DNA of 50,830 bases, from the IMG/VR virus record IMGVR_UViG_3300023179_007745, positions 1 to 50,830 of that record. One strand, given 5' to 3'. The stretch is from a virus. The notes under the pieces were generated by a model, which was given only the letters and a program-made list of their open reading frames with translations, ran no database searches and was not told the origin of the DNA. The translations under genes were made by a program, and so were the position numbers. This document shows positions 179-28,858 of this stretch, one piece after another. The first letter of the stretch is position 1. Each line of letters begins with the position of its first letter.

Positions 179-312
179 TCGGTATTTAATTCTTCTATAT
201 CAAAATCTTGAGGATCTTCGTAATCTATATCTGCATGATTTTGACCATAAACTAAATCTTTTGATTCTAACAATAAATTATACCAGTAAAAAGGATTATA
301 AAAATTAAACAT
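175..312 (-). CDS. Small acidic hypothetical protein (45 aa)
   Basis: ATG is preceded by a good ribosome-binding site (GGGAG, 6 nt away). The 45-residue product begins MFNFYNPFYWYNLLLESK and ends in a strongly acidic tail. It overlaps the end of the upstream phosphoesterase gene by 8 nt, and its stop overlaps the next start as ATGA. This is the tight packing expected of a real phage gene. No family is recognised. The aromatic N-terminus and acidic C-terminus suggest a small binding partner, which is inference only. Confidence 0.55.
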   Translation of the reverse strand: MFNFYNPFYWYNLLLESKDLVYGQNHADIDYEDPQDFDIEELNTE

Positions 313-2417: not shown

Positions 2418-3242
2418 TTAAAAAGTTTTAATTAACTCTTTTACGATTGCCCTGATACTTTTTCTTGGTTTATAGCCTAACTTCTTTAATTTGCTGTTAT
2501 CCATATACATCGATTTTACTTGTACTAGCTTATGAAAGTCAGCCTGTGGAACTTCGATGATTTCAGACTTAGATTGTGTGTAACCGATAGCATACATGAT
2601 GATTGTATAAAAATCTGTCTTTGTCATATTACCGACATTGTAGATCTCATTCACTTTGCCTCGAGTTAGAATCAATGCAATAGCACCACACAAATCGTCA
2701 ACATGAATATAATCGCGAATGAATTCGCCTTTATCATATAAGTTGATTGGACGATTGTTCTTTATTTCACCCAACAAATAAGTCAATGCATTTTTCTTCT
2801 TTGATACTTTTTTATCACCCGGACCAAGGACATTTGCAAACCTTAAGATTCTATACTTTATATTGAATGTTTCACAATATGAAATTAGCAATTGTTCTGC
2901 TGCACGCTTAGTAATTGAATAGAATCCTTTTGGATTACAATAAGATGTTTCTTTAGCAGGTAGATCTGTATCACCGTAGACAAACCAAGAGCTTGCAAAG
3001 TTAAATACAATATCTTTACCCTTACATTGTTCTAATATTTTGATTAAAGTAGTTAGATTAGTATCTATATCAATATAAGGATTCTCTTTCATACTATAAT
3101 TGTCAACCGTTGAAATCAAGTAAAGGATTTCTCCCTTATCGATCTTCACTTCATAGTCATCTCGATCATTTACAATCGTTTCATAGCAAAGTTGACAAAA
3201 ACGACTTCCTATAAAGCCGTGTCCACCAAATACATTTACCAC
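2418..3242 (-). CDS. NAD(P)-dependent sugar epimerase/dehydratase (extended SDR)
   Basis: The 274-residue product has the nucleotide-binding motif GGHGFIGS at residues 6-13. The catalytic YxxxK is YSITK near residue 127, with a SSWFVYG segment upstream supplying the catalytic Ser region. The late segment RDYIHVDDLCGAI is typical of UDP/GDP/CDP-sugar epimerases and 4-ketoreductases. The start overlaps the end of the RfbH-like gene by 7 nt, so the two are probably co-translated. That pairing suggests it acts on the 4-keto-3-deoxy product of the dehydrase, for example as a 4-ketoreductase or epimerase. The exact reaction is inference. Confidence 0.8.
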   Translation of the reverse strand: MVNVFGGHGFIGSRFCQLCYETIVNDRDDYEVKIDKGEILYLISTVDNYSMKENPYIDIDTNLTTLIKILEQCKGKDIVFNFASSWFVYGDTDLPAKETSYCNPKGFYSITKRAAEQLLISYCETFNIKYRILRFANVLGPGDKKVSKKKNALTYLLGEIKNNRPINLYDKGEFIRDYIHVDDLCGAIALILTRGKVNEIYNVGNMTKTDFYTIIMYAIGYTQSKSEIIEVPQADFHKLVQVKSMYMDNSKLKKLGYKPRKSIRAIVKELIKTF

Positions 3243-4516
3243 GATTGGATTACTCCAGAAATATAGTTTAGAACCTCATCTGTGTAGGTGGGTGTACAAC
3301 CAATAAAGAACACATGTGAAAGAGCTTTATTAGCATTTGGAAAATCTCTAAAATCACCTAAATGCTTATATCCAGGATGAAGTAGGATGTTACCAGCAAA
3401 GTAGCTTCTTGTTTGAATCTTATTAGCTTCAAAGTGTGCGACGAGCAATTCTTTCAAGTCTTGTGATTCGCAAATAATTGGTACACCAAACCAAGATGGA
3501 TCTGCATTATCAAGTTTAGAGGCAACTCTTACACCATCAAGCTGATTCAAACTATAGCTAATTGACTTAGTATGCTCTCTTCTTTTCTCGTCAATAAACT
3601 TAATCTTAGTCAATTGAACTAAGCCAATCGCACCCTGTAAGTCTAGTGGCTTTAGGTTATAACCCATATTAGTAAACACATACTTGTGATCAATCACACC
3701 ATCATAATCTTCAAGCCATTCTGAAAATCTCTTACCGCATGTTCCACATGATAGTTTATTATTTTTACCAACACAATAACAATCTCTACCCCACCACGAT
3801 ATCGAGCGAATCAACGGGATCAATTCATCGTGATTAGTACAAACCATTCCACCTTCACCAGTTGAAATGTGATGAGCTGGATAGAAGGAGCAAGACCATG
3901 CATCATATAACTTGCAAAGATGTTCGCCTTTCCACCTTGAACCAAGACTATCACAATTATCACCAATCAGCCTAAGATTGTGTTGCTCACATAATGCGAC
4001 CAATCTATCCATATCAGGAGGATTGCCAAGAACTGGCGAGACGACAATTGCTACTGTCTTTGGTGTGATTGCTTTCTCAATCAAATCAACATCAAAGTTT
4101 AGGGTGTTCATTTCAATATCAACGAACACTGGCTTCATATTGTTTTGAACAATAGGTGCGATTGTAGTAGGAAAGCCTACAGGAGATACAATAAGCTCTG
4201 CACCATCTTGCCACCCATAAAACTTCTTAAGAGATGTAAACATTACAAGATTTGCGGATGAGCCAGAATTTACCATATGAGCATGTTTTACTTCAAACAT
4301 TTTTGCAAAAGCTTCCTGGAATTCTGCAATTTTTTCACCGGTAGTGATCCATTCTCCATTAATTAAAGCATTAATGGCAGCTTGAATCTCTTGATAATCC
4401 CACACTGGACCTGAGTAGTATACCGGGGTGGTTCCAGGTATAAATTCATCATATTTGTTAATATAACCAGGCTTAGCACTTAAAGCCAATGCATTTATAA
4501 TACTTTGCTGAATCAT
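3236..4516 (-). CDS. rfbH: CDP-4-keto-6-deoxyglucose 3-dehydrase, E1/RfbH-type PMP iron-sulfur enzyme
   Basis: This 426-residue protein belongs to the DegT/DnrJ/EryC1/StrS aminotransferase fold. The usual PLP lysine is replaced by histidine (YPAHHISTGEGG, His216), the hallmark of E1/RfbH dehydrases. The [2Fe-2S] cysteines are present: Cys188, then exactly 57 residues to Cys246, then Cys248, with Cys257 and Cys260 before GKRF. Known E1 has C-X57-C-X-C-X7-C, so the last spacing is slightly longer here. E1 removes the C3 hydroxyl of CDP-4-keto-6-deoxyglucose together with an E3 reductase, leading to 3,6-dideoxyhexoses. No E3 gene is visible in this window. The gene overlaps a basic 44-residue ORF upstream (ATGA) and an epimerase downstream. 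Confidence 0.88.
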   Translation of the reverse strand: MIQQSIINALALSAKPGYINKYDEFIPGTTPVYYSGPVWDYQEIQAAINALINGEWITTGEKIAEFQEAFAKMFEVKHAHMVNSGSSANLVMFTSLKKFYGWQDGAELIVSPVGFPTTIAPIVQNNMKPVFVDIEMNTLNFDVDLIEKAITPKTVAIVVSPVLGNPPDMDRLVALCEQHNLRLIGDNCDSLGSRWKGEHLCKLYDAWSCSFYPAHHISTGEGGMVCTNHDELIPLIRSISWWGRDCYCVGKNNKLSCGTCGKRFSEWLEDYDGVIDHKYVFTNMGYNLKPLDLQGAIGLVQLTKIKFIDEKRREHTKSISYSLNQLDGVRVASKLDNADPSWFGVPIICESQDLKELLVAHFEANKIQTRSYFAGNILLHPGYKHLGDFRDFPNANKALSHVFFIGCTPTYTDEVLNYISGVIQSW

Positions 4517-4647
4517 TTACCTTGACCTCGATATTTTTTATATCCATGTCTTTGCGATTTATTCATGCTACTAGTTTTTGGTTTACTGCCGCCTTGTCTA
4601 GTACGTTTTTCAATTGTTTGTTTTCTTCTATCACTTTCACTTGCCAT
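4513..4647 (-). CDS. Small basic hypothetical protein (44 aa)
   Basis: ATG is preceded by AAGGAT at good spacing. The product is very rich in Lys and Arg (starts MASESDRRKQTIEKRTRQGG, ends YKKYRGQGK). Its stop overlaps the RfbH-like start as ATGA. The composition suggests a disordered, nucleic-acid-binding peptide. No family is recognised, and its place just before a sugar enzyme does not explain its role. Confidence 0.5.
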   Translation of the reverse strand: MASESDRRKQTIEKRTRQGGSKPKTSSMNKSQRHGYKKYRGQGK

Positions 4648-4664
4648 AATGTATATCCTTAAAA

Positions 4665-4973
4665 TTAAACTGGATGAAAGGCCACTTTATTATCTTTGGG
4701 TACAACAATTCCAGATCCAAACACTGAATTATATTGATTATAAAGTTCTTTAACGGGCTCCGATTGCCAAATCAAGAACTCAGCTGCTATTTCAATTAAA
4801 TGTTCCTTTGTATGAACAGCATAAGGAAGCATTGCCATGGTGGGATCGCCTCCAGCTTGTCTGGGTGGCATTAAGGTAAGAAGGCATGGTTGTTTAATAG
4901 AGTATCCATCATCAGTTGGATTTACATCGCCAATAATTTCTTCCCCCGTGGATAATTTTACAATTTTAATCAT
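4665..4973 (-). CDS. LSm/Sm-like domain hypothetical protein (paralogue A)
   Basis: The 102-residue product starts MIKIVKLSTGEEIIGDV, a strand-turn-strand with a 'KL-x-G-E-x-I-x-G' signature like the first strands of Sm/Hfq-type barrels (VxLxNGxxIxGxL). It ends with a short helix and an aromatic-poor tail. It shares this layout (KLS.GE.I at the start, a 'P..L..P' segment, a 'YNQY.S' helix) with the protein at 31228-31662. They are therefore paralogues by eye. An RNA- or protein-binding small barrel is inferred; no function is established. It overlaps the preceding ORF by 8 nt. Confidence 0.55.
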   Translation of the reverse strand: MIKIVKLSTGEEIIGDVNPTDDGYSIKQPCLLTLMPPRQAGGDPTMAMLPYAVHTKEHLIEIAAEFLIWQSEPVKELYNQYNSVFGSGIVVPKDNKVAFHPV

Positions 4974-5136
4974 TAATTATTTTCTCCAAAAATTTTTCAA
5001 CTTCATTTTCATTATAGCATATTTTAATAAAAGAATCAAGAGACGCTCGATTAAAACCTGCAATAATCGTTTGGTCACAAAGGACGCTAACTTTAATAAT
5101 CCAATAATCATAAAATACAGCGTCCAGACTTACCAT
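4966..5136 (-). CDS. Small hypothetical protein (56 aa)
   Basis: The ORF starts two bases after the stop of the 39-residue upstream ORF, and its own stop overlaps the LSm-like start. It begins MVSLDAVFYDYWIIKVSVLC and ends with a short amphipathic helix rich in Glu and Lys. No family is recognised. The only support is gene packing and an uninterrupted frame between flanking genes; a clear ribosome-binding site is missing. Confidence 0.45.
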   Translation of the reverse strand: MVSLDAVFYDYWIIKVSVLCDQTIIAGFNRASLDSFIKICYNENEVEKFLEKIIND

Positions 5137-5137
5137 A

Positions 5138-5257
5138 TTATTTTTTTATTTCCTTAATAGATTCTGCTATTTTTCCATTATGTGCAAAAATAGCAGCTGC
5201 TCTTGCTTGTCCATACATTTCTAACCATTCAAAAATTTTTTTAAAAAACTTTTTCAT
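5138..5257 (-). CDS. Very small hypothetical protein (39 aa)
   Basis: The start overlaps the stop of the DUF3563-like gene as ATGA. The peptide begins MKKFFKKIFEWLEMYGQARA and forms a likely amphipathic helix with a basic face. It could lie on a membrane or pack on a partner protein. The gene is in a chain of four tightly coupled small ORFs downstream of Hsp20. No family is recognised. Confidence 0.45.
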   Translation of the reverse strand: MKKFFKKIFEWLEMYGQARAAAIFAHNGKIAESIKEIKK

Positions 5258-5460
5258 AGTAGTCCTTTATACTTAAGCTGACGTTCGCGATATTCAAAAT
5301 CAGCTATATCTACACTCTTGGAAAGATAAAATTCTGCCTCTGATTGATATGAAATACTAAACCAGTTTCTGATTTTGTTCCACACCGACTTTTGTGAAGA
5401 TGGTGTCGGTACACCACCTGGGGCTACTTGTGATAGCCCCATGGCGGTAAATTTTTGCAT
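5254..5460 (-). CDS. DUF3563-like small protein (68 aa)
   Basis: The C-terminal half (WNKIRNWF, then EAEFYLSKSVDIADFEYRER) matches the pattern of DUF3563 proteins: an aromatic helix followed by E-x-Y-L-x-x-(S/A)-x-D-x-A-D-x-E-x-R. The family has no known function; it occurs widely in proteobacteria. The gene starts at the last base of the Hsp20 stop region, so it is probably translated from the same message. A proteobacterial origin is suggested by the family, which is inference. Confidence 0.6.
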   Translation of the reverse strand: MQKFTAMGLSQVAPGGVPTPSSQKSVWNKIRNWFSISYQSEAEFYLSKSVDIADFEYRERQLKYKGLL

Positions 5461-5957
5461 TATTCTGTCTTTTCCTTCTCAACCAAAAATTGTTTTTCTG
5501 TTTTTTTGGATTTAGTAGAAGTATCAGCAACTTCAATTTTGCGAGGTTTCTTGTGCTCAGGAATAATTTTTTCCAGGGCAATCTTCAACATACCGTTAAT
5601 CATTTCTGCATTATGAATTTCAATATGGTCATCTAATGCAAAAGTGCGGGTAAAAGCACGGTTTGCAATACCTTTGAACAAAAAGTTATCTTGGTCATCA
5701 GCTGAAGCTCCGCTAATTACAAGTTTGTTATCCTCAAAAGTAATTTCAATATCTGATTTAGAAAAACCAGCAACGGCTAATTCGATAACATACTTGTTAT
5801 CTTCTACCTTGCGGATATTGTATGGGGGATAGTTAGGAATATTTTTGGTCAAATCATCGTGTAGCTTAGCCATACGATTCCAATTATCATCGAAACCCAC
5901 ATAGAACTTATCCAAGTCCTTAAACATATCCAAAACAGTACGAGGTACTAGAGTCAT
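5460..5957 (-). CDS. hsp20: Small heat-shock protein Hsp20 (IbpA-like)
   Basis: The 165-residue product has a short N-terminal arm and an alpha-crystallin domain at about residues 43-140 (YVIELAVAGFSKSDI, then NRAFTRTFALDDHIEI and NGMLKIALEK). A C-terminal PRKIEV motif serves as the usual I-x-I/V anchor for oligomerisation, followed by a charged tail. Such holdases keep aggregating proteins soluble and are common in marine T4-like phages. A good ribosome-binding site (AGGAG) precedes the ATG. A TATAAT hexamer lies about 27 nt upstream of the ATG (5984-5989) without a clear -35. A TATAAATA box lies about 105 nt upstream, so expression could be host-type or late. Confidence 0.9.
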   Translation of the reverse strand: MTLVPRTVLDMFKDLDKFYVGFDDNWNRMAKLHDDLTKNIPNYPPYNIRKVEDNKYVIELAVAGFSKSDIEITFEDNKLVISGASADDQDNFLFKGIANRAFTRTFALDDHIEIHNAEMINGMLKIALEKIIPEHKKPRKIEVADTSTKSKKTEKQFLVEKEKTE

Positions 5958-6021
5958 TTTAATTCTCCTATTAAGCGAGTTAAATTATAAACCAACCCAA
6001 ATGGCGTTGGCAGGCAGTTTT

Positions 6022-6041
6022 ACTAGGTTACCTAGCCTAGT
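6022..6041. repeat. Small nested inverted repeat upstream of hsp20
   Basis: ACTAGG and CCTAGT flank an 8-nt loop, and a second perfect hairpin, CTAGG-TTA-CCTAG, lies inside. A further CCATC/GATGG hairpin follows directly. The cluster sits between the end of the GT gene and the hsp20 leader. There is no T-run on either strand, so a simple intrinsic terminator is unlikely. An operator or RNA-processing site is possible. Confidence 0.4.
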
Positions 6042-6060
6042 TCCATCACGATGGATGTTA

Positions 6061-7194
6061 TTATTTATATTCTATAAGCTCATTTACTACTTTGTCAACA
6101 GAAATTTTCCAGTCTGCCGCTTGAAACTGCTTAACAACAGTAACATCTTCATAAAATCTAGACTTACCAACATGGCCTTCAATAAACCAGGGAAAATATA
6201 ACCTTCCATTACAAAGTACAAATGTCTTTTTACCCATTGCACCCGCAGCATGCGCAACACTTGTATCACAAGATATTATAACATCACAGGTTTCTATGAT
6301 AGCAAGTAGCTCTTCATAATTATCTAATTTAGGATATAAAATTTTTTCATTTCTTTTTTCCTTGATTATACCAGTATTTCTTCCCTTATAATAAGTATAA
6401 TTTCCATAATATAAATTGACTATTTCTGCTCTATTTCCAACTTGATTAACGATAAAATCTCTAGGAATTGATAGAAGACCCCTTAACTTACTTTTTAAAT
6501 TACCGTGATGGCACAAGCCAATTCTGAATTTAGATTTATCTAAGTAATTTTTAACTATTTCTGGGTTAGAAAAAAAGTATTTTTGATTAGGGATGTTAAA
6601 TCTTACATCCAAAAGATAAGGTAATTTAAAAATACTAATTAGAGAATATTTCTTTTTGGGGTTGTATTGTATACTTTTTATATCTGGAAATATTCTAAAA
6701 AGAGTATTATCTAAAATACCATCACTAAGATAATATACATCACCCTTTATTGTTTTCTTGAGTTGATTATACCACCTTAAGAAGATAATCTCATCACCAG
6801 TCCCCCCTTGTTTATAAAGATAAACATTATCTATATTTTCAAGATTTGTTGGTTGATCGACATTCTTTAATCGTCGTAGTACTTTTAGATTATCATTAAA
6901 CTCTTTAGGTGATACTTTATCATGTTTGTTAAAGTATATTTCCCATAATTTTGGATAATTGCCTTCAAAATATTTTAAAATAAAAAGATTAGTATGATTT
7001 ATACTAGGATATTTTTTAATTATAACATCCCTAAGATCAATAGCTTTTTGATATTGAAGAGTATGTGCATAAAGACTATAAAGGCACATATAATCATTTA
7101 TATCAACTTTATCTTCCTTTACACTATCCTCAATTAATCTTATTACCTTTAAAGGGTCGTTAAAGTCAAGAATATGACAATATTTATCATACAT
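6061..7194 (-). CDS. Glycosyltransferase, heptosyltransferase (GT9)-like with helical N-terminal repeat region
   Basis: The 377-residue protein has a helix-rich N-terminal third reminiscent of TPR-type repeats (DYMCLYSLYAHTLQYQKAID). The C-terminal GT-B domain carries the GT9/GT41-type motif CDVIISCDTSVAHAAGAMG near residues 303-321, where Asp-Thr-Ser-x-Ala-His contacts the nucleotide sugar. A glycine-rich motif, YKQGGTGDEI, lies mid-protein. GT9 enzymes add heptose to LPS core; TPR-GT41 types glycosylate proteins. Either is possible. The start overlaps the RegA stop by one base (TAATG). The gene is an insertion between RegA and Hsp20. Confidence 0.7.
   Translation of the reverse strand: MYDKYCHILDFNDPLKVIRLIEDSVKEDKVDINDYMCLYSLYAHTLQYQKAIDLRDVIIKKYPSINHTNLFILKYFEGNYPKLWEIYFNKHDKVSPKEFNDNLKVLRRLKNVDQPTNLENIDNVYLYKQGGTGDEIIFLRWYNQLKKTIKGDVYYLSDGILDNTLFRIFPDIKSIQYNPKKKYSLISIFKLPYLLDVRFNIPNQKYFFSNPEIVKNYLDKSKFRIGLCHHGNLKSKLRGLLSIPRDFIVNQVGNRAEIVNLYYGNYTYYKGRNTGIIKEKRNEKILYPKLDNYEELLAIIETCDVIISCDTSVAHAAGAMGKKTFVLCNGRLYFPWFIEGHVGKSRFYEDVTVVKQFQAADWKISVDKVVNELIEYK
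6062..6069 (-). promoter_or_regulatory. Possible T4-type late promoter TATAAATA upstream of hsp20
   Basis: An exact TATAAATA octamer on the minus strand overlaps the last codons of the preceding GT gene. The hsp20 ATG is about 105 nt downstream, longer than the leaders of the other late promoters in this window. Because the motif partly encodes the final Tyr-Lys-stop, it may be coincidental. Confidence 0.35.
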
Positions 7195-7619
7195 TATTCA
7201 ACGCGTTTCTTTCCAATATTATATTTTGTTTGTAAACTCCATTCTGATTTTTCTTTGAAAGAAAGAACCTTTATCTGTGATAATGGTGCCATAAGTGAAT
7301 GTTTATTGGGATCAATTATTTTAATTAACTCCCAGTCTGCTAATAATTTTGTAATAGTATTACGCCTTTCTATATCATTATCAGTTAGTTCAGCTTGCTT
7401 CCCATCAAGCGCAAATAATTCCTTAAAATGAACAATGAAATATCTACCTTGTTTATGTAAAATATGACAAGATTGATATAAAATTTTATCTTTTCTTGAA
7501 GATACACCAATACGCGTTAATGTTTCTCTTACCTTTAAAAAATCATCCGGATGATTTAAAGTAACTTCTAACGGTAAATAACCTGGCATATCGATTTTGA
7601 AGAAATCTTCAGTTGCCAT
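7194..7619 (-). CDS. regA: RegA translational repressor of early mRNAs
   Basis: From ATG at 7619 the product is 141 residues and matches T4 RegA along its length (ATEDFFKIDMPGYLPLE near the start, RKDKILYQSCHILHKQGRYF in the middle). RegA binds ribosome-binding sites of early phage messages, including the clamp-loader genes. The SD AGGGG lies within the end of gene 62, which overlaps it. The order 45-44-62-regA is the T4 order. A GTG two codons upstream is a possible alternative start. Confidence 0.92.
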   Translation of the reverse strand: MATEDFFKIDMPGYLPLEVTLNHPDDFLKVRETLTRIGVSSRKDKILYQSCHILHKQGRYFIVHFKELFALDGKQAELTDNDIERRNTITKLLADWELIKIIDPNKHSLMAPLSQIKVLSFKEKSEWSLQTKYNIGKKRVE

Positions 7620-8058
7620 GACCACCCCTATTCAATTTTGTTTTTATTATTTGGATTTGTTCATCGGTCAACAAAGGCATAATTTGACGTGCTTTTTCAT
7701 TACTATAACCATAGTATTGTTTAACTATATCAATCGCCTCAATCTTGGATGCTTTGATCCATTTATTGAACCTTTTTCTAGGTCTTATTGTATTTATTAA
7801 AAATTGAAATTGGAGTGTTTTCTCGATATGTGGTCTCGAGTTCATCTCGTTTGCTTGAATTATAGTATCTGAACCGTATGATAACCCTTTATTAACGATG
7901 TATGGTTGATACTGTCTTTCAGACCATTGATCTACAATCAATTGCTCTTTAGTGTAATTGATTGCGCTAAGAAAATCAAAAGGAGATATAGAAGGGATCT
8001 TATATGTTTCTTCTTCCTCCGCTTTGACGAATTGGTTGTTATCCTCGAAGAACGCCAT
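7609..8058 (-). CDS. 62: Clamp-loader small subunit gp62
   Basis: From the internal ATG (MAFFEDNNQF) the product is about 149 residues. It sits immediately after gene 44 and a small ORF, and just before regA, as in T4. The sequence carries the family's IRPRKRFNKWIKA segment and the C-terminal MPLLTDEQIQIIKTKL helix. Gp62 joins four gp44 subunits to load the gp45 clamp. The longer frame starting at 8106 overlaps the upstream ORF and is not favoured. Its end overlaps RegA by 11 nt. Confidence 0.85.
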   Translation of the reverse strand: MAFFEDNNQFVKAEEEETYKIPSISPFDFLSAINYTKEQLIVDQWSERQYQPYIVNKGLSYGSDTIIQANEMNSRPHIEKTLQFQFLINTIRPRKRFNKWIKASKIEAIDIVKQYYGYSNEKARQIMPLLTDEQIQIIKTKLNRGGHGN

Positions 8059-8260
8059 ATACAAAGTCTTCAGCAAGATGACTTGCTTGAGCCATATGTT
8101 TTGCAATTAGAATAGTATGATCTCGATGACCATGCTGCGTTTCCGCATAACAATGAACCTGCAAAGTTTCATTACCATATTCATTTAATAATTCAATTAT
8201 CGCAGTTTTTTGCTTATCATCGGAATAATATCTTGCAAGTTCTTTAATTTGTACTTTCAT
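8039..8260 (-). CDS. Hypothetical protein between gp44 and gp62 (73 aa)
   Basis: The ORF starts in an ATGA overlap with the gp44 stop and overlaps the gp62 start by 20 nt. It begins MKVQIKELARYYSDDKQKTA and holds a His-rich stretch (HCYAETQHGHRDH) that could bind metal. T4 has no gene at this place, so it is an insertion in the clamp-loader operon. No family is recognised. Confidence 0.6.
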   Translation of the reverse strand: MKVQIKELARYYSDDKQKTAIIELLNEYGNETLQVHCYAETQHGHRDHTILIAKHMAQASHLAEDFVYGVLRG

Positions 8261-9198
8261 TTTAACTCCACTGAAGCCATAATTTCTGTTAGACAGGCTG
8301 CTAGGTTAATTTCTTGGTCTGCCACAAAAGCAGATTTATATTGATAATCGGCAATAATTAATACTAATTGAGGTATTTGTTGTGTGTTGGTTGTTAAAGT
8401 ATCATATATTTTACGAAATAAAGTTGTGGGGTCGTTATCCAGATTATTAACAACCCAGGTACGCATCTTTTTCCAATCTTTTTCCTTAAGTGCTTCTAAT
8501 AATTGATTCATATTTACATCAGCAATAGATGTTAATAATCCTTCATCAATAGAACCTGAAACACTATAGCGCTGAAGCTCATTAAGCGTGCGTCTATAAT
8601 CTGGAAAATATTTTTCTACGAGTTTAGCTACTACTTTTGGATCAAATGTAATATTTTCATTATTAAGTATTTCTGTAATTCTCTTAAAGAATCTATTTGC
8701 AATCTTAGGCTTTTCTTCTTTAGCAATCTTAAATTCTATCACAGAACATCTGCTATGTAAAGGTTGAATAATCCTATTTTTATAGTTACAAGTAAAGACG
8801 AATCTACAATTCTTACTAAACTCTTCAATAAACCCACGCAATGCAGGTTGAGTGGAGTTGGGGTTAAGATAATCAGCTTCATCTAGAATTACTACTTTTA
8901 GTCCTCCATTAAAGGATACGGTTGATGCAAATTGTTTGATCTTGGTTCTTAGAACATCAATACCAGACTCTTCAGAACCGTTGATAATTATATAATCAAT
9001 TCCTAGTTCTTCACATAAAGCTCTTGCAACAGTAGTTTTTCCTACACCTGCTCCTCCACAAAATAACATATTTTGCAATTGATGTTCTTCAAGCATTTTC
9101 TTAAAGATATTCTTTTGCTCATTAGGTAAAATACAATCATCTAGCTTCCTCGGTCGATATCTTTCTACCCAAAGAAATTGATCTTCATGAAATTCCAT
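8257..9198 (-). CDS. 44: Clamp-loader large subunit gp44 (AAA+ ATPase)
   Basis: The 313-residue protein has Walker A (GGAGVGKTT, about residues 48-56), Walker B (VILDEADYL, near 108), sensor 1 (FTCNYKNRI) and the clamp-loader SRC motif (HSRCSVIEF) with the arginine finger. The N-terminus (WVERYRPRKLDD) is the RFC/gp44 hallmark. It loads the gp45 clamp with gp62 in an ATP-dependent way. It is followed by overlapping small ORFs and gp62 and preceded by gp45, the T4 order. Confidence 0.97.
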   Translation of the reverse strand: MEFHEDQFLWVERYRPRKLDDCILPNEQKNIFKKMLEEHQLQNMLFCGGAGVGKTTVARALCEELGIDYIIINGSEESGIDVLRTKIKQFASTVSFNGGLKVVILDEADYLNPNSTQPALRGFIEEFSKNCRFVFTCNYKNRIIQPLHSRCSVIEFKIAKEEKPKIANRFFKRITEILNNENITFDPKVVAKLVEKYFPDYRRTLNELQRYSVSGSIDEGLLTSIADVNMNQLLEALKEKDWKKMRTWVVNNLDNDPTTLFRKIYDTLTTNTQQIPQLVLIIADYQYKSAFVADQEINLAACLTEIMASVELK

Positions 9199-9204
9199 AA
9201 TAAT

Positions 9205-9396
9205 TCACTTATTTAGTTGTTGTAATCCCCAAAACTTATTTTGATCTAAAAATCCTGTTTGTTCGAATAACAGGATATAATCCCAGGCATGACCAAGATA
9301 TTGTTCCCAATTGTTTTGGTCACCTGTCTTTCTTTCTGCTATAATTTTTGCTAAATAGACTCCATTTTTTTTACCAATTTCAGTCATACTATTCAT
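9205..9396 (-). CDS. Hypothetical protein between gp45 and gp44 (63 aa)
   Basis: The start overlaps the gp45 stop as ATGA, and the stop lies 6 nt before gp44. The product (MNSMTEIGKKNGVYLAKI...) has a Trp-rich centre (NNWEQYLGHAWDYILLFEQ). An alternative start is the second Met (residue 4). Its place in the clamp operon suggests a replication-related accessory, which is inference only. Confidence 0.55.
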   Translation of the reverse strand: MNSMTEIGKKNGVYLAKIIAERKTGDQNNWEQYLGHAWDYILLFEQTGFLDQNKFWGLQQLNK

Positions 9397-10052
9397 ATTA
9401 CACTCTCCGGATCACATGCAAGCCAATATTCTAAATCCTTTAAGTGATGTTTAAAATGAATAAGTTTTTTCTTAGATACAGTTACTGTGTATGCATCTGG
9501 AATAACCTTAAATAATTCAACACCAATAAACACATCAAAATCGACCATACAAGTCCCAACCTGTTTTGTATATGAGTTTGCTGTTTTATTCTTGCGATCC
9601 GCAACAGAAATCGTTACCGATTGATTTTTACTTGTGATAAAGATATGAGGGGCGCTTGTGATTGCCGCCGCTTTAACGATAATCTGAACATCTTCTGCAG
9701 ATAGTTTAAATTGAAAATGCTGGTCAAATTCTATACTTTTGCCCGCAGGGGGAGCAACAATAATTTCTGGCCTTGAATAAAAATATTCAAACTTACCACT
9801 ATCTTTTGTGATTAAAAGGCTATTTTCTCCAAATTCAATCTCTTGATTTTCCATCAACGTTAGCAAACCAAGTAATGAATTTAGATCATAGATAGCTATT
9901 TCTTTTGGGAATGTTTCAGCCACTTTTGCTACAGCAAACACTGTCTTTACCGATGACATAGTAGATATCGTACTACCAGGTCTAAAAATAATATTTGTAT
10001 TAATACTTGCAAAGTTTTTTAACAATCCAAGTGTCTCATTACTAAGTTTCAT
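9393..10052 (-). CDS. 45: DNA polymerase sliding clamp gp45
   Basis: The 219-residue length and the sequence (MKLSNETLGLLKNFASIN, then NSLLGLLTLM and LIHFKHHLKDLEYWLAC) match T4-type gp45 clamps, which form a trimeric ring on DNA. In T4 it is also the mobile enhancer for late transcription with gp55 and gp33. The presence of gp55 and TATAAATA promoters in this window fits that role. A ribosome-binding site (AGGAGTAAGGTGA) precedes ATG. The region directly upstream is a GT2 gene, not another replication gene. Confidence 0.95.
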   Translation of the reverse strand: MKLSNETLGLLKNFASINTNIIFRPGSTISTMSSVKTVFAVAKVAETFPKEIAIYDLNSLLGLLTLMENQEIEFGENSLLITKDSGKFEYFYSRPEIIVAPPAGKSIEFDQHFQFKLSAEDVQIIVKAAAITSAPHIFITSKNQSVTISVADRKNKTANSYTKQVGTCMVDFDVFIGVELFKVIPDAYTVTVSKKKLIHFKHHLKDLEYWLACDPESVI

Positions 10053-10087
10053 TCACCTTACTCCTATCAAAACATCATTATATCATA

Positions 10088-10819
10088 TTATGCAGCTTTT
10101 CTCCACGGGTATGCGCCAGAATACTGTTTATGCATTGCTGCATTTCCTTTTAAGAAGAAATTAGATTGAACTGAATCTGCTCTATTCCCTACTCTGTAGT
10201 TTAATGTGTACTTTCCGGTGCAATCGTATTTAAAATTATTACCCATCAAGAATGAACTAATGATTCTATCTACTTCTGGCTGATCTTCTGGATGCCTAGC
10301 TCTACGGTACCAAAACGGTGACATCATCAAGGCAATGTCTTTAGGTACAAACCAACAACCAACATCAATAAAGTTATCATTTAAAACTGATTTCCATTTG
10401 CCAAGTGATTCACAATCATCTTTGCAAACAAATTGATCAAGCCTATCGACTATATTCCTTAGACTGTATGCCCAATTATTTCCTTCTTTGATTACATCGA
10501 CAAGAGATTCGACATGATTTGGTTGTATCCAATTATCTTCATCAAGGAACATTAAGTAATCGCCCTTTGCTAAGAACGTACATGCTCCGTAAATCTTGTG
10601 GCCATTATATCCACCAGCTCCTGTATTATAAGGAAGTGAGATTAAATCTCTAACCGGATAATCTTTTAATGTTGATAATGAATCTGATAGTTTTTCAGGT
10701 CCATCGATTACAACTAAGTGTTGAATGTTAGAATATGTTTGTTTATTGACTGAATCCATTGCTTTGCCAAGCTTTGGATGTCCTGTGGTAGGCGTAATAA
10801 TTGTAACTAATGGATTCAT
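10088..10819 (-). CDS. Family 2 glycosyltransferase (GT-A)
   Basis: The 243-residue protein begins PLVTIITPTTGHPKLGKAMD, the classic GT2 N-terminal strand and loop. It has a metal-binding-type acidic motif, LMFLDEDNW near residue 95. A short C-terminal half with aromatic residues ends in a Trp-Arg-Lys tail. Its start overlaps the stop of the upstream GT-methyltransferase gene as ATGA. It probably transfers a hexose to a glycan or protein. Donor and acceptor are unknown. Confidence 0.8.
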   Translation of the reverse strand: MNPLVTIITPTTGHPKLGKAMDSVNKQTYSNIQHLVVIDGPEKLSDSLSTLKDYPVRDLISLPYNTGAGGYNGHKIYGACTFLAKGDYLMFLDEDNWIQPNHVESLVDVIKEGNNWAYSLRNIVDRLDQFVCKDDCESLGKWKSVLNDNFIDVGCWFVPKDIALMMSPFWYRRARHPEDQPEVDRIISSFLMGNNFKYDCTGKYTLNYRVGNRADSVQSNFFLKGNAAMHKQYSGAYPWRKAA

Positions 10820-12381
10820 GGCTGATATACTACAGGATGGTTAGGATCAAGTCTGCAATATATTTCGAAATATTTGCTGCTAATGTTTCTTGCCTCTTTT
10901 GTAACTTTAATCTCTACCTTTGAATCTCCAAATAATTCGAATTTTTGTACTAAATCAATATGGGGAATATCATTACTCCAAAGAATTTGAAGTTCGTGTT
11001 GATTGCCTGACTGATCAATAGGATATCCTTTATACTCAAAATGACCCATCTTTTGAATGACACAAATTTTATTATCATCGGTGGGATGATAAACAAATCG
11101 ATGGTGATCATATCCCTTAGACATCTGGCCCCTATCACCCTTATCCATTTCTCTATGCATAGATGGAACTGCAATCAATCCTCTCTTTGCAATCCTTGGA
11201 AACATTTCTAAAGCTAAGAAAGGATAATATAAATCTTCTAATGTATGTGAACAAATACAAAAATCAAATTTACCGTGTTGATAAACATGATCCATTAATT
11301 GTTGCCAGCCACTTTCTCTTTCTAAATTAAGCGAAAAGTGTTTTTTACTTCCCGGATTTGGAAAATAAAAATCCGCAGTGGCATCTGCTATACTTCTTGT
11401 CCAAAAATCTGCTCCTGCTCCAATATCAATAACATTATAATCTCCTTTTCGTTTTTGTTCAGAGATATACTCGATAATTGGATGTCGTGTGTGTAGTCTA
11501 GTAAATCTAAACTCTAATTGATCTGAATCTTTACTATAATAATCATTATAAATTTGTGTACTTATCATATTATTTTCTTGTCCTCTGTACTTTATATTAA
11601 GTGCATCAACTAATTGCTTATGTCTATCATACTGATGAATCATAGCTGGGACAACAGCTGGTTGTTTATTTAAGTTAACAACCAGACCATCTCTTAAAGA
11701 CATTGTACCTAGTGAATGACCAATCGTTGCTACCAATTTATCACCTGTATAATTTATATTTGTTTTCGGTAATTTTCCTAAAGCGTAAAATACATTTAAA
11801 GTGGCCTGATCAACAAATATTGGAGGTACACCAGGATCTGGAATAGGATACTTATCTCCTTCCTCAATCATTACATCACATAACTTAATGATAGCATCCC
11901 TTTTGCCAGCCATCATTCCACCACATAGAACATGTTGATCTTTCACTTGTTCTAATACTTTATTACCGTACATCTGTCTTATCCACTTACTATTCCATTG
12001 CTGACATTGATCAATAGTTATAGTTTCTGCAGATAGCTCAAGATCACAACCACTAAAGTATAAAAAAGGATTATCTTGATAAACCATGTCTCTTGTATCA
12101 GACATTATAACTTTATCTACATCTGGATATAAAGATAAAATAACTTCTCTTGGTTTAATCCATCTTTCTCTCATAATTTTTTCAACAGTAATTTTTTCTT
12201 GTATTCTTACTGTATCAATATCAAACGATTCCAAGTATTGATAAAAATCTTCATCTTCACTATCTGAAATAATACAGATATCCCCTTTGTATACACGTCT
12301 GACAGAAATAGCAAAATTATCGATGTTATCAATAGAGCCACAAAAGCCAGTAGCCATTCCAATAATTAAATTGTTTTCCAT
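10816..12381 (-). CDS. Bifunctional protein: N-terminal glycosyltransferase-like domain fused to SAM-dependent methyltransferase
   Basis: The 521-residue protein has two parts. Residues 1 to about 270 look like a GT-A-type domain: KVIMSDTRDMVYQDNPF near residue 90 holds the acidic DxxD site, and VLCGGMMAG and VDQATLN follow as in nucleotide-sugar transferases. From about residue 310 a class I methyltransferase follows: motif I VIDIGAGADF, then FDFCICSHTLEDL (as in motif IV-type methyltransferases) and RGLIAVPSMHRE. The linker is short. Together these could add and then methylate a sugar. It lies in an overlapping run with a GT2 and a 4,6-dehydratase. The GT assignment is weaker than the methyltransferase one. 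Confidence 0.7.
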   Translation of the reverse strand: MENNLIIGMATGFCGSIDNIDNFAISVRRVYKGDICIISDSEDEDFYQYLESFDIDTVRIQEKITVEKIMRERWIKPREVILSLYPDVDKVIMSDTRDMVYQDNPFLYFSGCDLELSAETITIDQCQQWNSKWIRQMYGNKVLEQVKDQHVLCGGMMAGKRDAIIKLCDVMIEEGDKYPIPDPGVPPIFVDQATLNVFYALGKLPKTNINYTGDKLVATIGHSLGTMSLRDGLVVNLNKQPAVVPAMIHQYDRHKQLVDALNIKYRGQENNMISTQIYNDYYSKDSDQLEFRFTRLHTRHPIIEYISEQKRKGDYNVIDIGAGADFWTRSIADATADFYFPNPGSKKHFSLNLERESGWQQLMDHVYQHGKFDFCICSHTLEDLYYPFLALEMFPRIAKRGLIAVPSMHREMDKGDRGQMSKGYDHHRFVYHPTDDNKICVIQKMGHFEYKGYPIDQSGNQHELQILWSNDIPHIDLVQKFELFGDSKVEIKVTKEARNISSKYFEIYCRLDPNHPVVYQP

Positions 12382-12385
12382 ATCA

Positions 12386-13330
12386 CTACCAAATAAAATT
12401 ATGTTTGTAGTATTCTACTATCTTTGAAATCTCGTAATCAAAATTAGCCTTAGGTTCCCACCCCAACGTTTTTAATTTACTATCATCTATTGAATATCTA
12501 ACATCTTGACCTTGTCTGACCATATCGGTAATGTAATCATCAATGTTCGTGTTGCCGTTAAAATGGAATAAAATCTTTTTCACTACTTCAATGTTTGATT
12601 CTTCGTAGTTACCTGAAATATTATAGATTTGATTTTTAACATTACTGTTAATCATTGAAATTACAGCATTGGCAGTATCTGAAACATGTAACCATGTTCT
12701 TCTTGGCAATCCTCTTTCATGTAAGTCTATCTTTCTTCCGATAGATAGGTACTTGATAGATTTAGGTATAAGTTTTTCAACATATTGACCAATACCATAA
12801 TTATTTGTTGGTCTTGCAATAATGTAAGGTATATTATAAGTTCTTGCCCAAGCTAATATCAACATATCAGCTGCAGCTTTAGTTGCACTGTAAGGGTTGC
12901 TTGGTTTAAGCAAATCTAATTCGGAATGACTACCTTCAATGATATCACCATATACTTCATCTGTTGAAAAATGGAGTAAGGTTGGAATTTTGTATATACT
13001 TTTTTCTTGGATTAATCTCAGTAAATGATGAACACCGTTGATGTTACTTTTTAAAAATACATCGTTGCTAACAATACTATTGTCAACGTGTGTTTCTGCT
13101 GCGGTATTAATTACATAATCACAATCATAAAGACGGTCCAAATCATTGATATCTGATTTTATAAACTTAAACCCCTCACCATAAGTCTCTAAATTTTTTA
13201 ATAGATTTTCGTTAGCAGCATATGTAATTTTATCTACACCTATTACATACCATCCTTCATCTAAACACTGTTTAGCGACATGAAATCCTATAAATCCAAG
13301 ACATCCTGTGACATAAACTATTCTTGCCAT
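12386..13330 (-). CDS. dTDP/CDP-glucose 4,6-dehydratase-type SDR
   Basis: The 314-residue protein has the SDR nucleotide motif TGCLGFIG near residue 9. It also carries NTAAETHVDNS, the catalytic STDEVYGD near residue 124 and the YSATK motif near 148 (Tyr/Lys). RPTNNYGIGQ and EKLIPKSI follow, a pattern typical of RmlB and close 4,6-dehydratases. The reaction gives the NDP-4-keto-6-deoxy sugar that E1/RfbH-type enzymes use next. The nucleotide (dTDP or CDP) cannot be told from these motifs. It overlaps the neighbouring SDR gene by 13 nt. Confidence 0.85.
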   Translation of the reverse strand: MARIVYVTGCLGFIGFHVAKQCLDEGWYVIGVDKITYAANENLLKNLETYGEGFKFIKSDINDLDRLYDCDYVINTAAETHVDNSIVSNDVFLKSNINGVHHLLRLIQEKSIYKIPTLLHFSTDEVYGDIIEGSHSELDLLKPSNPYSATKAAADMLILAWARTYNIPYIIARPTNNYGIGQYVEKLIPKSIKYLSIGRKIDLHERGLPRRTWLHVSDTANAVISMINSNVKNQIYNISGNYEESNIEVVKKILFHFNGNTNIDDYITDMVRQGQDVRYSIDDSKLKTLGWEPKANFDYEISKIVEYYKHNFIW

Positions 13331-14109
13331 AACTCTATTCCTTTTTCCAACCCAATCAATGGCACATTCAATTGATTTAAATTTTTACAACTTCCTGTAT
13401 AGGAAAGACCTTGTTTTTCGACAACTACAGGTATATTATAACCTTTTATATTCTTGAATAACAATAGAATTTCATCTAGAAATAGCTTTTCTTCGTAAAC
13501 ACAATTGATATCAGTGCCATTAAATATTTTATTATTGACTATAGTGTCTACAACAGATGTAAAGTCTTGGATGCTGAAATAATCAAAGAGTCGATTGTTT
13601 AAATAAAATTCCTTACTAGAAATATATCTTTTGAAAAGTCTGCTGTCCAACTCTCTAGGACCAAAACAACCAAACAGTCTAAGTGTACAAAATTTTTCTT
13701 GATATGTAATGTCTCTTGCAATTAAATTTTTAGCTAGTCCGTAACTTGAAGATGGTGTTCTATCAAAAATTAATCTTTCATTGGCAAACGATATTTCTTT
13801 GGTCATATCAAATTCTGCGCCAGAACCAATATTAATTATTCCATCAACATATTCGCTTGCTTCTTTGAGTATATTATACCAAATTAAATTATTTGCTAAG
13901 TCTTGATGATTGGTATCGTGTGGTGTTTTATTACCGAAAGAAACACAGTTGATGATGATTTTTGGTTTGACGTTAATAACAAAAGCCAAAAAACTATTTC
14001 TATCTAATATATTGAAATCTGAACGAAGGATTGGAATGACATCATTCAGATGATTTGTAAGATATGAGCCAACAAATCCTCTTGCGCCAATGATTGCTAT
14101 CTTACTCAT
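13318..14109 (-). CDS. SDR-family nucleotide-sugar reductase/epimerase
   Basis: The 263-residue product begins SKIAIIGARGFVGSYL, the NAD(P)-binding Gly-rich loop of extended SDRs. It also has NIGSGAEFD and SSSYGLAKNLI, giving the catalytic Tyr and Lys in YGLAK. It overlaps the TPP-enzyme gene upstream by 8 nt and the dehydratase downstream by 13 nt. A 4-ketoreductase acting on the product of the TPP enzyme or dehydratase would fit; this is inferred from neighbours only. Confidence 0.72.
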   Translation of the reverse strand: MSKIAIIGARGFVGSYLTNHLNDVIPILRSDFNILDRNSFLAFVINVKPKIIINCVSFGNKTPHDTNHQDLANNLIWYNILKEASEYVDGIINIGSGAEFDMTKEISFANERLIFDRTPSSSYGLAKNLIARDITYQEKFCTLRLFGCFGPRELDSRLFKRYISSKEFYLNNRLFDYFSIQDFTSVVDTIVNNKIFNGTDINCVYEEKLFLDEILLLFKNIKGYNIPVVVEKQGLSYTGSCKNLNQLNVPLIGLEKGIELWQE

Positions 14110-14863
14110 AACCTAGAATTTTTCTAGCTTCATCAATCTCTTCATGTGATAAAAATGGATACATATCATCTAGTGCTGGTTGAATCTTCTTACCATCAAC
14201 TTCCTTTAACATTTGCGTAGGTAATATTTCTTGATCAGCCTGGCAAATTACTTCAACTATCATTGGAGTTTTTTTGTTTAAAATGTATTCAATATCAATT
14301 TGTAATTTTTTATTACTATCTATCAACAAATAGTCGAGGCTATATGCTTTAGCTATATTGGATATTTCAGGGAACCACAATCCGCTTTTAGCATCTACTC
14401 CATATACTCTATTTTCGAAAAATTTCTTTTGGGTGTTTTTTATACTTAAATATCCATCATTATTCAACACAATTACTTTAATCGGTGTAGGTGCAGAATG
14501 AAGATTAGCTAATTCTTGAATATTAGAGTTGAAACTTCCATCACCTGTAATCACCACTATATTTTTATCTGGTGCAGCATGTGACACTCCAATGCCAGCT
14601 GGAACTGCACATCCCATATCTGCTTGCGATGAAGAAAATACAAACCTTTGATTTATTTTTGATTTTAAATTTTGAGGAAGTGCATAGGATGGTGAGCCAG
14701 CATCTGTTACTATAATAGTTTCAGAAGACATATGATCATTAAAGACTTCTAACAACTGATAAAGATTGATTGGACCTTCTTTAGTATAATAACTTGAATT
14801 GTATACAGGCCACTTTTCTTTAAGTTTTTTAACTCCACTGACCCATGAAAAGATTTCACTCAT
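14102..14863 (-). CDS. TPP-dependent acetolactate-synthase-like enzyme, C-terminal (TPP/Mg-binding) half
   Basis: The 253-residue protein carries the C-terminal TPP-binding domain of acetolactate-synthase-type enzymes. The motif GDGSFNSNIQEL (residues 107-118), ending at NN (134-135) about 25 residues later, binds Mg and TPP diphosphate. It lacks the N-terminal pyrimidine-binding domain, which is encoded by the gene just upstream. ATG overlaps that gene's stop (ATGAGTGA), and the upstream frame ends with TAA one codon before this ATG. Reading through is therefore impossible, and re-initiation is likely. Together the two make about 606 residues, the normal family length. Confidence 0.82.
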   Translation of the reverse strand: MSEIFSWVSGVKKLKEKWPVYNSSYYTKEGPINLYQLLEVFNDHMSSETIIVTDAGSPSYALPQNLKSKINQRFVFSSSQADMGCAVPAGIGVSHAAPDKNIVVITGDGSFNSNIQELANLHSAPTPIKVIVLNNDGYLSIKNTQKKFFENRVYGVDAKSGLWFPEISNIAKAYSLDYLLIDSNKKLQIDIEYILNKKTPMIVEVICQADQEILPTQMLKEVDGKKIQPALDDMYPFLSHEEIDEARKILGYE

Positions 14864-15917
14864 TTACTTGTCTCCAAGCTTCATAGTTTTTAGATGATTT
14901 GATGTATTGTTCAGTATAATTAAAAAAAGATGTCAAGTTACAATGATAAAATTTATCTATTTTGACATTATTTTTTAAATATTCATTAGAATCAATATCA
15001 ATCATAATTTTTTTAGAGTAGGGAGAAAATTGTTTTTCGTCATAACCGGTATGAGTGGAATTAAGCGAACATCCTAGTATTAAAAGAAGTTCGCAATGAT
15101 GCATTACAAAATTACCTACCCTACTTCCTTTAATTCCAATTGTTCCAATATTTAACTGCCGGTATGCAGGTATTAAATCTCTTGCCAAATAAGTAGAAAC
15201 ATAAGGTATATTAAAGTTCTGTATAAAATTAGAAAATTGATCACGTTGATTGCTCATATGAATACCATTACCAACTAACACTAGAGGTCTTTTACTCATC
15301 TTTAAGGAATCAATAATCTCTTTAAATTTATATTGATTTTCAGTGTTTAGAGGAGGAATAAACTCAAGACAATCTTCTGGCATAACTGCAGTTTGAACAT
15401 CACCTGGAATATCTAACCATACAGGACCCTTTCTTCCATCCATAGCATAAAACACAGCTTCACCCAACATTCTTTTAATTTGCGAAGGATGTTCAACTAC
15501 TTTATGGTACTTTGTAATATTAGATATAGTGTTAATAATGTCGTGTTCTTGGACACCATATTTACGTAATGTAACTTGTTTTGTTTTATTTAAAAAATTA
15601 CTAGTATGATGCAATCTAACATTACCTGAAATTATAAGCAAAGGAACTCCATCTTGCCAGGCATTTAATACTGGTGTAATTACGTTTGTTCCTCCGCATC
15701 CAGTAGTAGGATTTAAAACTGTAAGTTGATTGGTATATTTTCCTTCTCCAAAAGCAGCGTATCCAGCACCTTGTTCGTGGTGATGGCAAATGTATTTAAT
15801 TTTACCATGCTTAATAAAACCATCATTTAGACCAGATGCACCTCCTCCCATTAACCCATATACACGTTGAACGCCGTGGTCGTATAAGAATTTTGCAATA
15901 TAGTCACATACTCTCAT
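14856..15917 (-). CDS. TPP-dependent acetolactate-synthase-like enzyme, N-terminal and central half
   Basis: From ATG at 15917 (GAGG 6 nt upstream) the product is 353 residues: a TPP pyrimidine-binding domain and a central domain. The catalytic Glu is in HHHEQGAGYAAFGEGKY, Glu48. LLIISGNVRL and GPVWLDIPGDVQ are typical landmarks. The TPP-binding C-terminal domain is on the next gene. The best functional analogy is YerE, an acetolactate-synthase-type flavoenzyme that attaches a two-carbon unit to CDP-3,6-dideoxy-4-keto-glucose in yersiniose synthesis. The E1/RfbH gene nearby makes that analogy attractive but unproven. Confidence 0.82.
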   Translation of the reverse strand: MRVCDYIAKFLYDHGVQRVYGLMGGGASGLNDGFIKHGKIKYICHHHEQGAGYAAFGEGKYTNQLTVLNPTTGCGGTNVITPVLNAWQDGVPLLIISGNVRLHHTSNFLNKTKQVTLRKYGVQEHDIINTISNITKYHKVVEHPSQIKRMLGEAVFYAMDGRKGPVWLDIPGDVQTAVMPEDCLEFIPPLNTENQYKFKEIIDSLKMSKRPLVLVGNGIHMSNQRDQFSNFIQNFNIPYVSTYLARDLIPAYRQLNIGTIGIKGSRVGNFVMHHCELLLILGCSLNSTHTGYDEKQFSPYSKKIMIDIDSNEYLKNNVKIDKFYHCNLTSFFNYTEQYIKSSKNYEAWRQVNE

Positions 15918-16683
15918 TCCTAACCTCATTTAAAATTTCTTGAATATCATCTCTAACCTGCATACTCGTATCAACGTATCTGCTATGGCCAGGTTGTACG
16001 GTCTCATACATTCCGTTTTGCGATCCTTGTGCAACGATTGGAGGTTCTAACCAATAAACATTCATATTCAACACCTTCATCCAGAATCCTAATTCAGGAT
16101 CAGGATTAAAACAGATCTTATTTGCTTCCATGTGTGAATAAATTTGAAGTGCAGATTCTTTCTTCATTACTACAGAATCTGCACAACGATCTGCAGGATG
16201 TCCCTTGAGATACCAATGTGTGTCTGGGTGCGTGCCTTGAATTCTTTTTCCACCACCCTGACCGATAAATGCAACATGCCAATTAGTTGGAATCGATTGC
16301 ATATATCCTAAGAATCGTTCTACAAAATTATTGCAAATAATTGCATCATCTTCAAACATAATTCCGTATGGTGCATCACCAAACGCTATTCTTCTAAACG
16401 CTTCTTTTTGTTTGAATGATAGTGAGACCATTGCTGGTTGTAGAGGGTAATGAGGAAAGAATTCGTTTGGATCCTGTCCTCTTCTTTGATACTCGAGATG
16501 ATCAGCTTGAAATGATTTAGTATACATTTCATAACTAATCTCTTCTTTATCGAAGTCTGTAATCCATGTTACATTGGTTAGTTGTTCTTTGTTATGGATT
16601 GCTTCAAGAATCTTACGCCTTTCGACGTTAGGCTTATAATGAACAACATATGATGGAATATCTTTATTCAAAGAACACCTCAT
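15904..16683 (-). CDS. Family 25 (LPS-type) glycosyltransferase
   Basis: The 259-residue product has the GT25 pattern: a short N-terminal strand (IPSYVVHYKPNVERR), SFKQKEAFRRIAFGD, then the metal-binding EDD in GIMFEDDAIICN near residue 123. Family 25 includes LPS beta-1,4-galactosyltransferases. The ATG lies within the upstream GT gene's end, with no SD before it. A TTG five codons in has GAGG about 6 nt before it, so MNKDIPSYVV may be the true start. Confidence 0.75.
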   Translation of the reverse strand: MRCSLNKDIPSYVVHYKPNVERRKILEAIHNKEQLTNVTWITDFDKEEISYEMYTKSFQADHLEYQRRGQDPNEFFPHYPLQPAMVSLSFKQKEAFRRIAFGDAPYGIMFEDDAIICNNFVERFLGYMQSIPTNWHVAFIGQGGGKRIQGTHPDTHWYLKGHPADRCADSVVMKKESALQIYSHMEANKICFNPDPELGFWMKVLNMNVYWLEPPIVAQGSQNGMYETVQPGHSRYVDTSMQVRDDIQEILNEVRNESM

Positions 16684-17605
16684 TAAAACGTTTCATAACT
16701 AGTTCTGGTTTAAATTCTTCTACTCGCTTGCTCCAGTCTTCTTGTTTAAGATCTTTAAACGATTGCAGCATTTCTTTTACATTAGATTGATTATACAGCA
16801 AACCAGATCCTTCCAGCATATCTAAATGATTCTTATCAATACCATCTTCCCATGCCATCACTGGTTTATTTTGTGATAGAAATTCTGCTACAGATAGACC
16901 AAAACTCTCACCCCTCTGCCTTGCATGCAACATCATATCACAGGCGTTGATGTAATTACTTTTCAATTGTCTATCGACAAAGGGCTGTAAGTAGATCATG
17001 TTCTTGTGTTGAATGAATTGTTGTGTATTAGCAAACAAGAATACAAACCTATCATCTGAATCTAATATCTCAATTACTGCTTGCTTGACAAATGGAAGAT
17101 CGAATGTATGGAAACCACCAAGTCTACCAACAACAATCTTATCTTCCGGTATCTGCAGCTGTTGTCTGAGATTTTTAGTTGGTTCTGGAAGATCTACAAT
17201 ATGTGGAACATATGTGTGACCATTATTCATTTCATCTGCAAGCCATCTAGAGATGTATGCGTAGCGTGTACCATGAGGATCGTTGGCTTGAAACACAGCA
17301 TGAATTGCAGTTCTTGTTATTGGTAAGAACTCATTGTTAAATCCATACTTTATAAAGTAAGAGATATCTGCTTTATCGCAGTGTTCTTGAAGTTCTTCAT
17401 CATTATTATCATGTGAATATACTTCAAACCTTTGCCTGAACATATCCAATGCTTTTTCTTCAGATTTATCTTCTTCAATAAATCCAGAATTATAACAAAT
17501 GATACTTTCATTGCCAAGTATTTCTTCATTGTAGCGAGCATAGTCATATACGGCTACTGCAGTGCCACGAAAGTTAATTGTATGAGTATGGAATAATACT
17601 TTCAT
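16664..17605 (-). CDS. GT-B glycosyltransferase (family 4-like)
   Basis: The 313-residue protein begins MKVLFHTHTINFRGTAVAVY, resembling a GT4 donor/acceptor loop with the Gly-Thr pair. GRLGGFHTFDLPFVKQAV near residue 165 and RQRGESFGLSVAEFLSQNKP near 250 are the nucleotide-sugar-binding motifs, with the E-x7-E type EFLSQNKPVMAWED. It overlaps the following GT25 gene by 20 nt. It probably acts in the same glycan assembly as its neighbours. Confidence 0.78.
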   Translation of the reverse strand: MKVLFHTHTINFRGTAVAVYDYARYNEEILGNESIICYNSGFIEEDKSEEKALDMFRQRFEVYSHDNNDEELQEHCDKADISYFIKYGFNNEFLPITRTAIHAVFQANDPHGTRYAYISRWLADEMNNGHTYVPHIVDLPEPTKNLRQQLQIPEDKIVVGRLGGFHTFDLPFVKQAVIEILDSDDRFVFLFANTQQFIQHKNMIYLQPFVDRQLKSNYINACDMMLHARQRGESFGLSVAEFLSQNKPVMAWEDGIDKNHLDMLEGSGLLYNQSNVKEMLQSFKDLKQEDWSKRVEEFKPELVMKRFNEVFFE

Positions 17606-28362: not shown

Positions 28363-28385
28363 AGTTATATTCACTTTCCTAATGT

Positions 28386-28856: not shown

Positions 28857-28858
28857 TG

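Follow-up and report, generated by a model that had tools for sequence, protein, structure and literature searches.

A split YerE-like enzyme and a probable phage-encoded route to a C-branched dideoxy nucleotide sugar

Can a T4-like phage build its own branched-chain deoxy sugar? The question is raised by a linear IMG/VR record of 50,830 bases, analysed here in its entirety and called the window, in which a first-pass annotation noted an E1/RfbH-type dehydrase, several SDR enzymes and a complete but split ThDP-dependent enzyme. These genes are present as claimed; their open reading frames are all intact with coordinates as first given, and their products match the corresponding families. As the record is linear, the window is probably a fragment. 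It comes from a T4-like phage, in which genes for the sliding clamp (9393-10052), clamp-loader subunits (8257-9198 and 7609-8106) and RegA (7194-7625) were recognised by eye. We consider it probable, at roughly 0.7, that the window encodes a route to a C-branched 3,6-dideoxy nucleotide sugar, judging from gene content, catalytic residues, family placement and the conserved linkage and split of the genes. The earlier proposal that this phage could make a dideoxy or branched sugar is thereby strengthened, chiefly by the YerE-like placement of the ThDP enzyme and its linkage to E1.

The sugar genes had been described as a group running in one direction. All of them do lie on the minus strand, but they do not form one block, as about 8 kb with replication and other genes separates the E1 gene of the window (E1b) from the ThDP group. 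The sliding clamp, clamp loader, RegA, Hsp20 and other genes are found between 4.6 and 10 kb, and clamp, clamp-loader and RegA genes also adjoin the module in other viral contigs. The Hsp20-like small heat shock gene (5460-5957, minus strand; identified by eye) sits between RegA and E1b and is kept in close relatives.

The ThDP enzyme is encoded by two minus-strand frames. TPP_N (14856..15929) carries the N-terminal and middle domains (PF02776 and PF00205), the middle one being of the FAD type, and TPP_C (14102..14863) carries the C-terminal ThDP-binding domain (PF02775). The catalytic Glu48 of TPP_N and the GDG...N site of TPP_C are invariant across the viral set, and the GYLSIKNTQ signature of TPP_C is common to bacterial YerE-like proteins. 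With its subunits joined, the window enzyme matches a Sulfurospirillum protein (locus L165) at 462 bits and 41% identity, and scores 265 bits against JanthE, a YerE-like enzyme from Janthinobacterium, versus 213 against PpYerE and 200 against AHAS I. A fused viral copy (L139) ranks the solved proteins in the same manner, namely JanthE (8rph, 256 bits), 5ahk (209 bits) and then AHAS I (184 bits). Solved structures exist for PpYerE and JanthE, and their donors and acceptors have been described (PMC12247030); we take 5ahk, a P. protegens protein, to be the PpYerE structure mentioned there. The first six PDB matches of the predicted TPP_N structure (mean pLDDT 82) are all JanthE chains. JanthE is thus the best solved match in both sequence and fold and shares the signature in the form GYL-IK-TQ, although it is fused, carries CDG in place of GDG, and is 28% identical to the window enzyme over 534 columns.

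A quick tree, built without bootstrap, groups all sampled viral rows as a single clade (SH-aLRT 100) nested among the bacterial ones. PpYerE itself is placed next to AHAS, so the YerE-like group may be paraphyletic. Taken together, sequence, predicted fold and tree show that the nearest kin of the split enzyme are the ketone-branching carboligases of the YerE type and not plain acetolactate synthase. The YerE relationship suspected in the first-pass annotation therefore withstood a comparison that could have overturned it, and it is further favoured by an E1 gene neighbouring the ThDP enzyme in 78 of 84 viral loci.

Known YerE-like carboligases are single polypeptides, and the window enzyme and most of its viral relatives differ from them in being split. 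The two frames of the window overlap by 8 nt (14856..14863, minus strand) with GGAG just upstream of the second start, an arrangement from which translational coupling of TPP_N and TPP_C is predicted. Among the 84 viral loci 79 are split and five fused; a 4-nt ATGA overlap joins the two frames in 62 of the 79 split loci, and a Shine-Dalgarno-like stretch precedes the second start in 66. A frameshift or sequencing slip can be dismissed as the cause, because so many loci are split and the ATGA-type overlap is conserved. All 78 bacterial relatives examined are single open reading frames of 586-698 aa. Since the fused viral rows sit within the split rows of the tree, either re-fusion or several independent splits must be assumed.

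Relatives of TPP_N are encoded by 117 viral contigs. The 84 loci examined, which include near copies of each other, contain an E1 of a second subfamily (E1') in 78 cases, an RmlB-type dehydratase in 74 and a reductase-like SDR in 78; where full flanks were available the corresponding figures are 61/64, 60/64 and 64/64. A class I/II aminotransferase occurs in 29 of the 84 loci and PanB in six, never both, but this exclusion is statistically weak because of the near copies and the close kinship of the PanB loci. Neither gene is in view in the window. In bacteria, where one genome per species was scanned, an alignment that included JanthE brought up 575 relatives of up to 40% identity. An earlier scan with viral-only patterns had found no bacterial relative, a blank that the later result shows to be a limitation of the patterns. 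Matches at about 30% identity in phage records were set aside, as they look largely like bacterial DNA. Three bacterial loci (L166, L168 and L172) hold RfbF-RfbG-RfbH-aminotransferase-YerE-like clusters, with scores of 411-466 for RfbF (cut-off 300), 461-500 for RfbG (cut-off 278) and 726-747 for RfbH (cut-off 423). They share their E1, aminotransferase and branching-enzyme families with the phages, the aminotransferases being about 53% identical, and in some an SDR follows. They differ from the phages in their CDP front end, where phages have an RmlB-type one, and in their uniformly fused enzyme.

YerE-like enzymes are thus encoded by more than 100 viral contigs, mostly as two subunits, and are accompanied by another kind of sugar-nucleotide front end. 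Viruses are named as unexplored ground in a 2025 review on this enzyme group (PMC12247030), and our literature searches turned up neither a viral YerE-like enzyme nor a two-subunit form. For enzymology, these proteins would be new, split ketone-branching catalysts.

The route that we favor would begin with host NDP-glucose, probably dTDP- and possibly UDP-linked, which the RmlB-type enzyme (12386-13330) would convert to NDP-4-keto-6-deoxyglucose. O-3 would then be removed by an E1 dehydrase that draws its electrons from a host reductase; the dehydrase would be the adjacent E1' in relatives and most likely E1b (3236-4516) in the window. The two-subunit YerE-like enzyme (15929-14102) would decarboxylate a 2-oxo acid, by default pyruvate in the window, and join the acyl unit to C-4 to give a tertiary alcohol. 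SDR_C may subsequently reduce the new side-chain ketone, and phage glycosyltransferases would transfer the sugar to a target of the phage or of the host. The scheme resembles yersiniose A synthesis in Yersinia pseudotuberculosis, which likewise combines an E1 dehydrase, an acetolactate-synthase-like branching enzyme (YerE) and a reductase-like SDR. Unlike that system, in which YerE is one polypeptide and CDP sugars are made for LPS, the phage has two subunits and an RmlB-type front end, and RfbF, RfbG and E3 were not found. The donor may vary among phages. ErwE, the enzyme of the erwiniose system of Pectobacterium, uses 4-hydroxy-2-oxo acids (PMC12247030), and since homoserine transamination or the action of PanB on pyruvate could give 4-hydroxy-2-oxobutanoate, the viral aminotransferase and PanB variants might supply such hydroxylated donors, for which the window has neither gene in view. 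We tentatively extend this to a virus-specific, two-subunit YerE-like lineage that branches dTDP- or UDP-linked rather than CDP-linked 3,6-dideoxy sugars, with an aminotransferase in some phages and PanB in others tailoring the donor 2-oxo acids, so that phages would have diverse branched sugars of their own for glycans on virion or DNA; we rate this broader proposal at somewhat less than even odds.

E1 enzymes act on 4-keto-6-deoxyhexoses. E1b (3236..4516, minus strand) is a PMP/2Fe-2S-type NDP-4-keto-6-deoxyhexose 3-dehydrase, as indicated by its DegT family match (262 bits), its residues and its nearest solved protein, Y. pseudotuberculosis E1 (3bcx, 259 bits, E 5e-76). His216, in SFYPAHH, replaces the PLP lysine, and the cysteines follow the pattern C188-X57-C246-X-C248 with C260 as the fourth aligned cysteine. 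Neither the histidine nor any of the four cluster cysteines varies among 73 E1' and 81 E1b proteins from viruses; the substitution and cysteine spacing reported from the sequence at first reading were borne out. Against the NCBIfam RfbH model E1b scores 379 bits, below the equivalog cut-off of 423, which an E1' protein (L100) exceeds with 452 bits. A relative of E1b is encoded by the isolated Synechococcus phage S-H68, so phage E1 genes have already been annotated.

The position of E1b speaks against the favored route. Relatives carry E1' directly before the ThDP genes, where the window and its closest relative, L001, have a GT25-like gene instead. As E1b belongs to the other subfamily, lies 8 kb downstream and occurs elsewhere without the ThDP enzyme, it may serve a separate dideoxy sugar, and E1' may lie outside the fragment. 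Either E1b has replaced E1' in the window or two pathways coexist. In the second case, E1b, SDR_A and perhaps the RmlB-type enzyme would make a linear 3,6-dideoxyhexose, and the ThDP enzyme with SDR_C would branch another 4-keto sugar or use an off-fragment E1'. E1b and SDR_A (2418..3242, minus strand; PF01370), a predicted 4-keto reductase or epimerase, form a near-strict pair, found together in 78 of 80 viral loci with E1b (L014-L093) that do without the ThDP enzyme. The ThDP enzyme is absent from all 24 sampled viral records with E1b, and the 20 viral ThDP records checked carry only the E1' type. S-H68 encodes E1b, RmlB, RmlC and several SDRs, and the phage search revealed no ThDP enzyme of S-H68; its genes and those of other cyanophages resemble the window in combining E1b with an RmlB-like dehydratase in T4-like phages, but the branching enzyme was not found there. 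Against this stands the lack of any E1' in the 50.8-kb record, as well as in L001 at the corresponding place. We regard two coexisting pathways as a serious possibility, though the less probable one. In several loci (L053, L061) a 394-aa gene that resembles a sugar C-methyltransferase by eye precedes the E1b-SDR_A pair.

With regard to the nucleotide front end, the first-pass annotation needs revision. Of the two SDR genes that could be read as 4,6-dehydratases, the clear one is SDR_B (12386..13330, minus strand), and the product of 2418-3242 is a shorter, weaker relative. SDR_B scores 287 bits on the RmlB model TIGR01181, under the NCBIfam cut-off of 365, against 59 bits on the CDP model; the window SDRs match the CDP-glucose 4,6-dehydratase model weakly at best. 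Its catalytic T-D-E (STDEVYGD) and YxxxK are invariant in 75 viral relatives. No cytidylyltransferase (RfbF) or CDP-glucose 4,6-dehydratase (RfbG) exceeded its cut-off in 50 viral records of up to 222 kb or in the window, nor was an E3-type ferredoxin domain seen in them, an absence that is provisional in records that are fragments. The earlier remark that E3 and the cytidylyltransferase were not in view thus extends to the rest of the window and to these records, and the CDP route first envisaged finds no support in the same searches or in the RmlB-type dehydratase. A dedicated nucleotidyltransferase was likewise not found in the viral records. These absences hold for canonical members only, because whole-record screens miss divergent ones: L008:14752-15861 matches PF00483 at 38 bits, yet was missed by the screen of its contig. 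From the two model scores and the missing RfbF and RfbG, dTDP or UDP appears likelier than CDP, and NDP-glucose and the electrons for E1 probably come from the host.

Judged by its RmlB motifs alone, SDR_B might also be a decarboxylase like EvdS6, in which case the acceptor could be a different 4-keto sugar, for instance a UDP-4-ketopentose as in everninomicin. EvdS6, which is an RmlB-like decarboxylase and shares the TDEVYG motif, is indeed the second-best solved match of SDR_B (192 bits), but the best is 2hun (236 bits), annotated as a dTDP-glucose 4,6-dehydratase, and the module is accompanied by E1 in 78 of 84 loci; we consider this acceptor unlikely. SDR_C (13318..14109, minus strand) is a small extended SDR, by motifs and fold a predicted ketoreductase of the branched product. 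Its GxxGxxG, Ser96 and Tyr123-xxx-Lys127 are invariant in 14 relatives, and its predicted structure best matches 4-keto sugar reductases and an epimerase. Its weak RmlD match (20 bits) might suggest that it joins the RmlB-type enzyme in making rhamnose or a related deoxy sugar with the ThDP enzyme incidental, but this is most improbable, as RmlC was not found in the 50 viral records, window included, and the ThDP, SDR and RmlB genes travel together.

Equally little weight can be given to the reading as an ordinary acetolactate synthase with which the phage would boost branched-chain amino acid metabolism: the NCBIfam and Pfam names are acetolactate-synthase-like and a published table of auxiliary metabolic genes includes viral ilvB together with rfbG, gmd and fcl (PMC8226683), but the enzyme scores 171 bits on the curated IlvB model (cut-off 538), and tree, predicted fold and linkage to E1, RmlB and SDR genes all speak against it. 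Some of the viral auxiliary genes named "ilvB" may thus be sugar genes that were misread. In the unverified record of Campylobacter phage A11a (L245, MG065691.1 84777-93676), the acetolactate synthase matches E. coli AHAS I at every one of 506 residues (100% identity) and probably stems from contaminating host or laboratory DNA.

In the window, as in relatives, the module is bordered by genes of glycosyltransferase type. Those on the minus strand of the window include a GT2 glycosyltransferase (10088..10819; PF00535), a candidate user of the sugar with relatives near the module in several loci; a 521-aa protein beside the 4,6-dehydratase (10816..12381), by eye a glycosyltransferase plus methyltransferase with no family match, kept beside the module in L001; the 259-aa putative GT25-like glycosyltransferase at the E1' place of relatives (15904..16683; by eye, no family match); and a GT4-type glycosyltransferase (16664..17605; PF00534, 27 bits, cut-off 26.4). 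As neither a Wzx-type flippase nor a sugar-phosphate transferase was found in 26 viral records, a target in the cytoplasm (virion protein or DNA) or a core sugar of the host may be favored over O-antigen. It now becomes testable what sugars are produced by aquatic T4-like phages and on what they are placed.

FkbM methyltransferases, a GT10 fucosyltransferase and GDP-mannose dehydratase-like genes surround the module in other contigs (L008:4636-5391, L116:11757-12449, L003:6196-7068), and the phage sugar loci around it amount to large phage-encoded glycan gene sets. Elsewhere in the window, GTP cyclohydrolase, QueD-like and QueE-like genes stand in a row (27337-30439, minus strand), a preQ0-type 7-deazaguanine pathway that suggests modified DNA or tRNA bases. 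The frame at 25698-26633 looks DpdA/TGT-like by eye and matched no family. A calcineurin-type phosphoesterase (305-1072, minus strand) has weak LpxH similarity (57 bits, cut-off 134) and is possibly a lipid A related gene.
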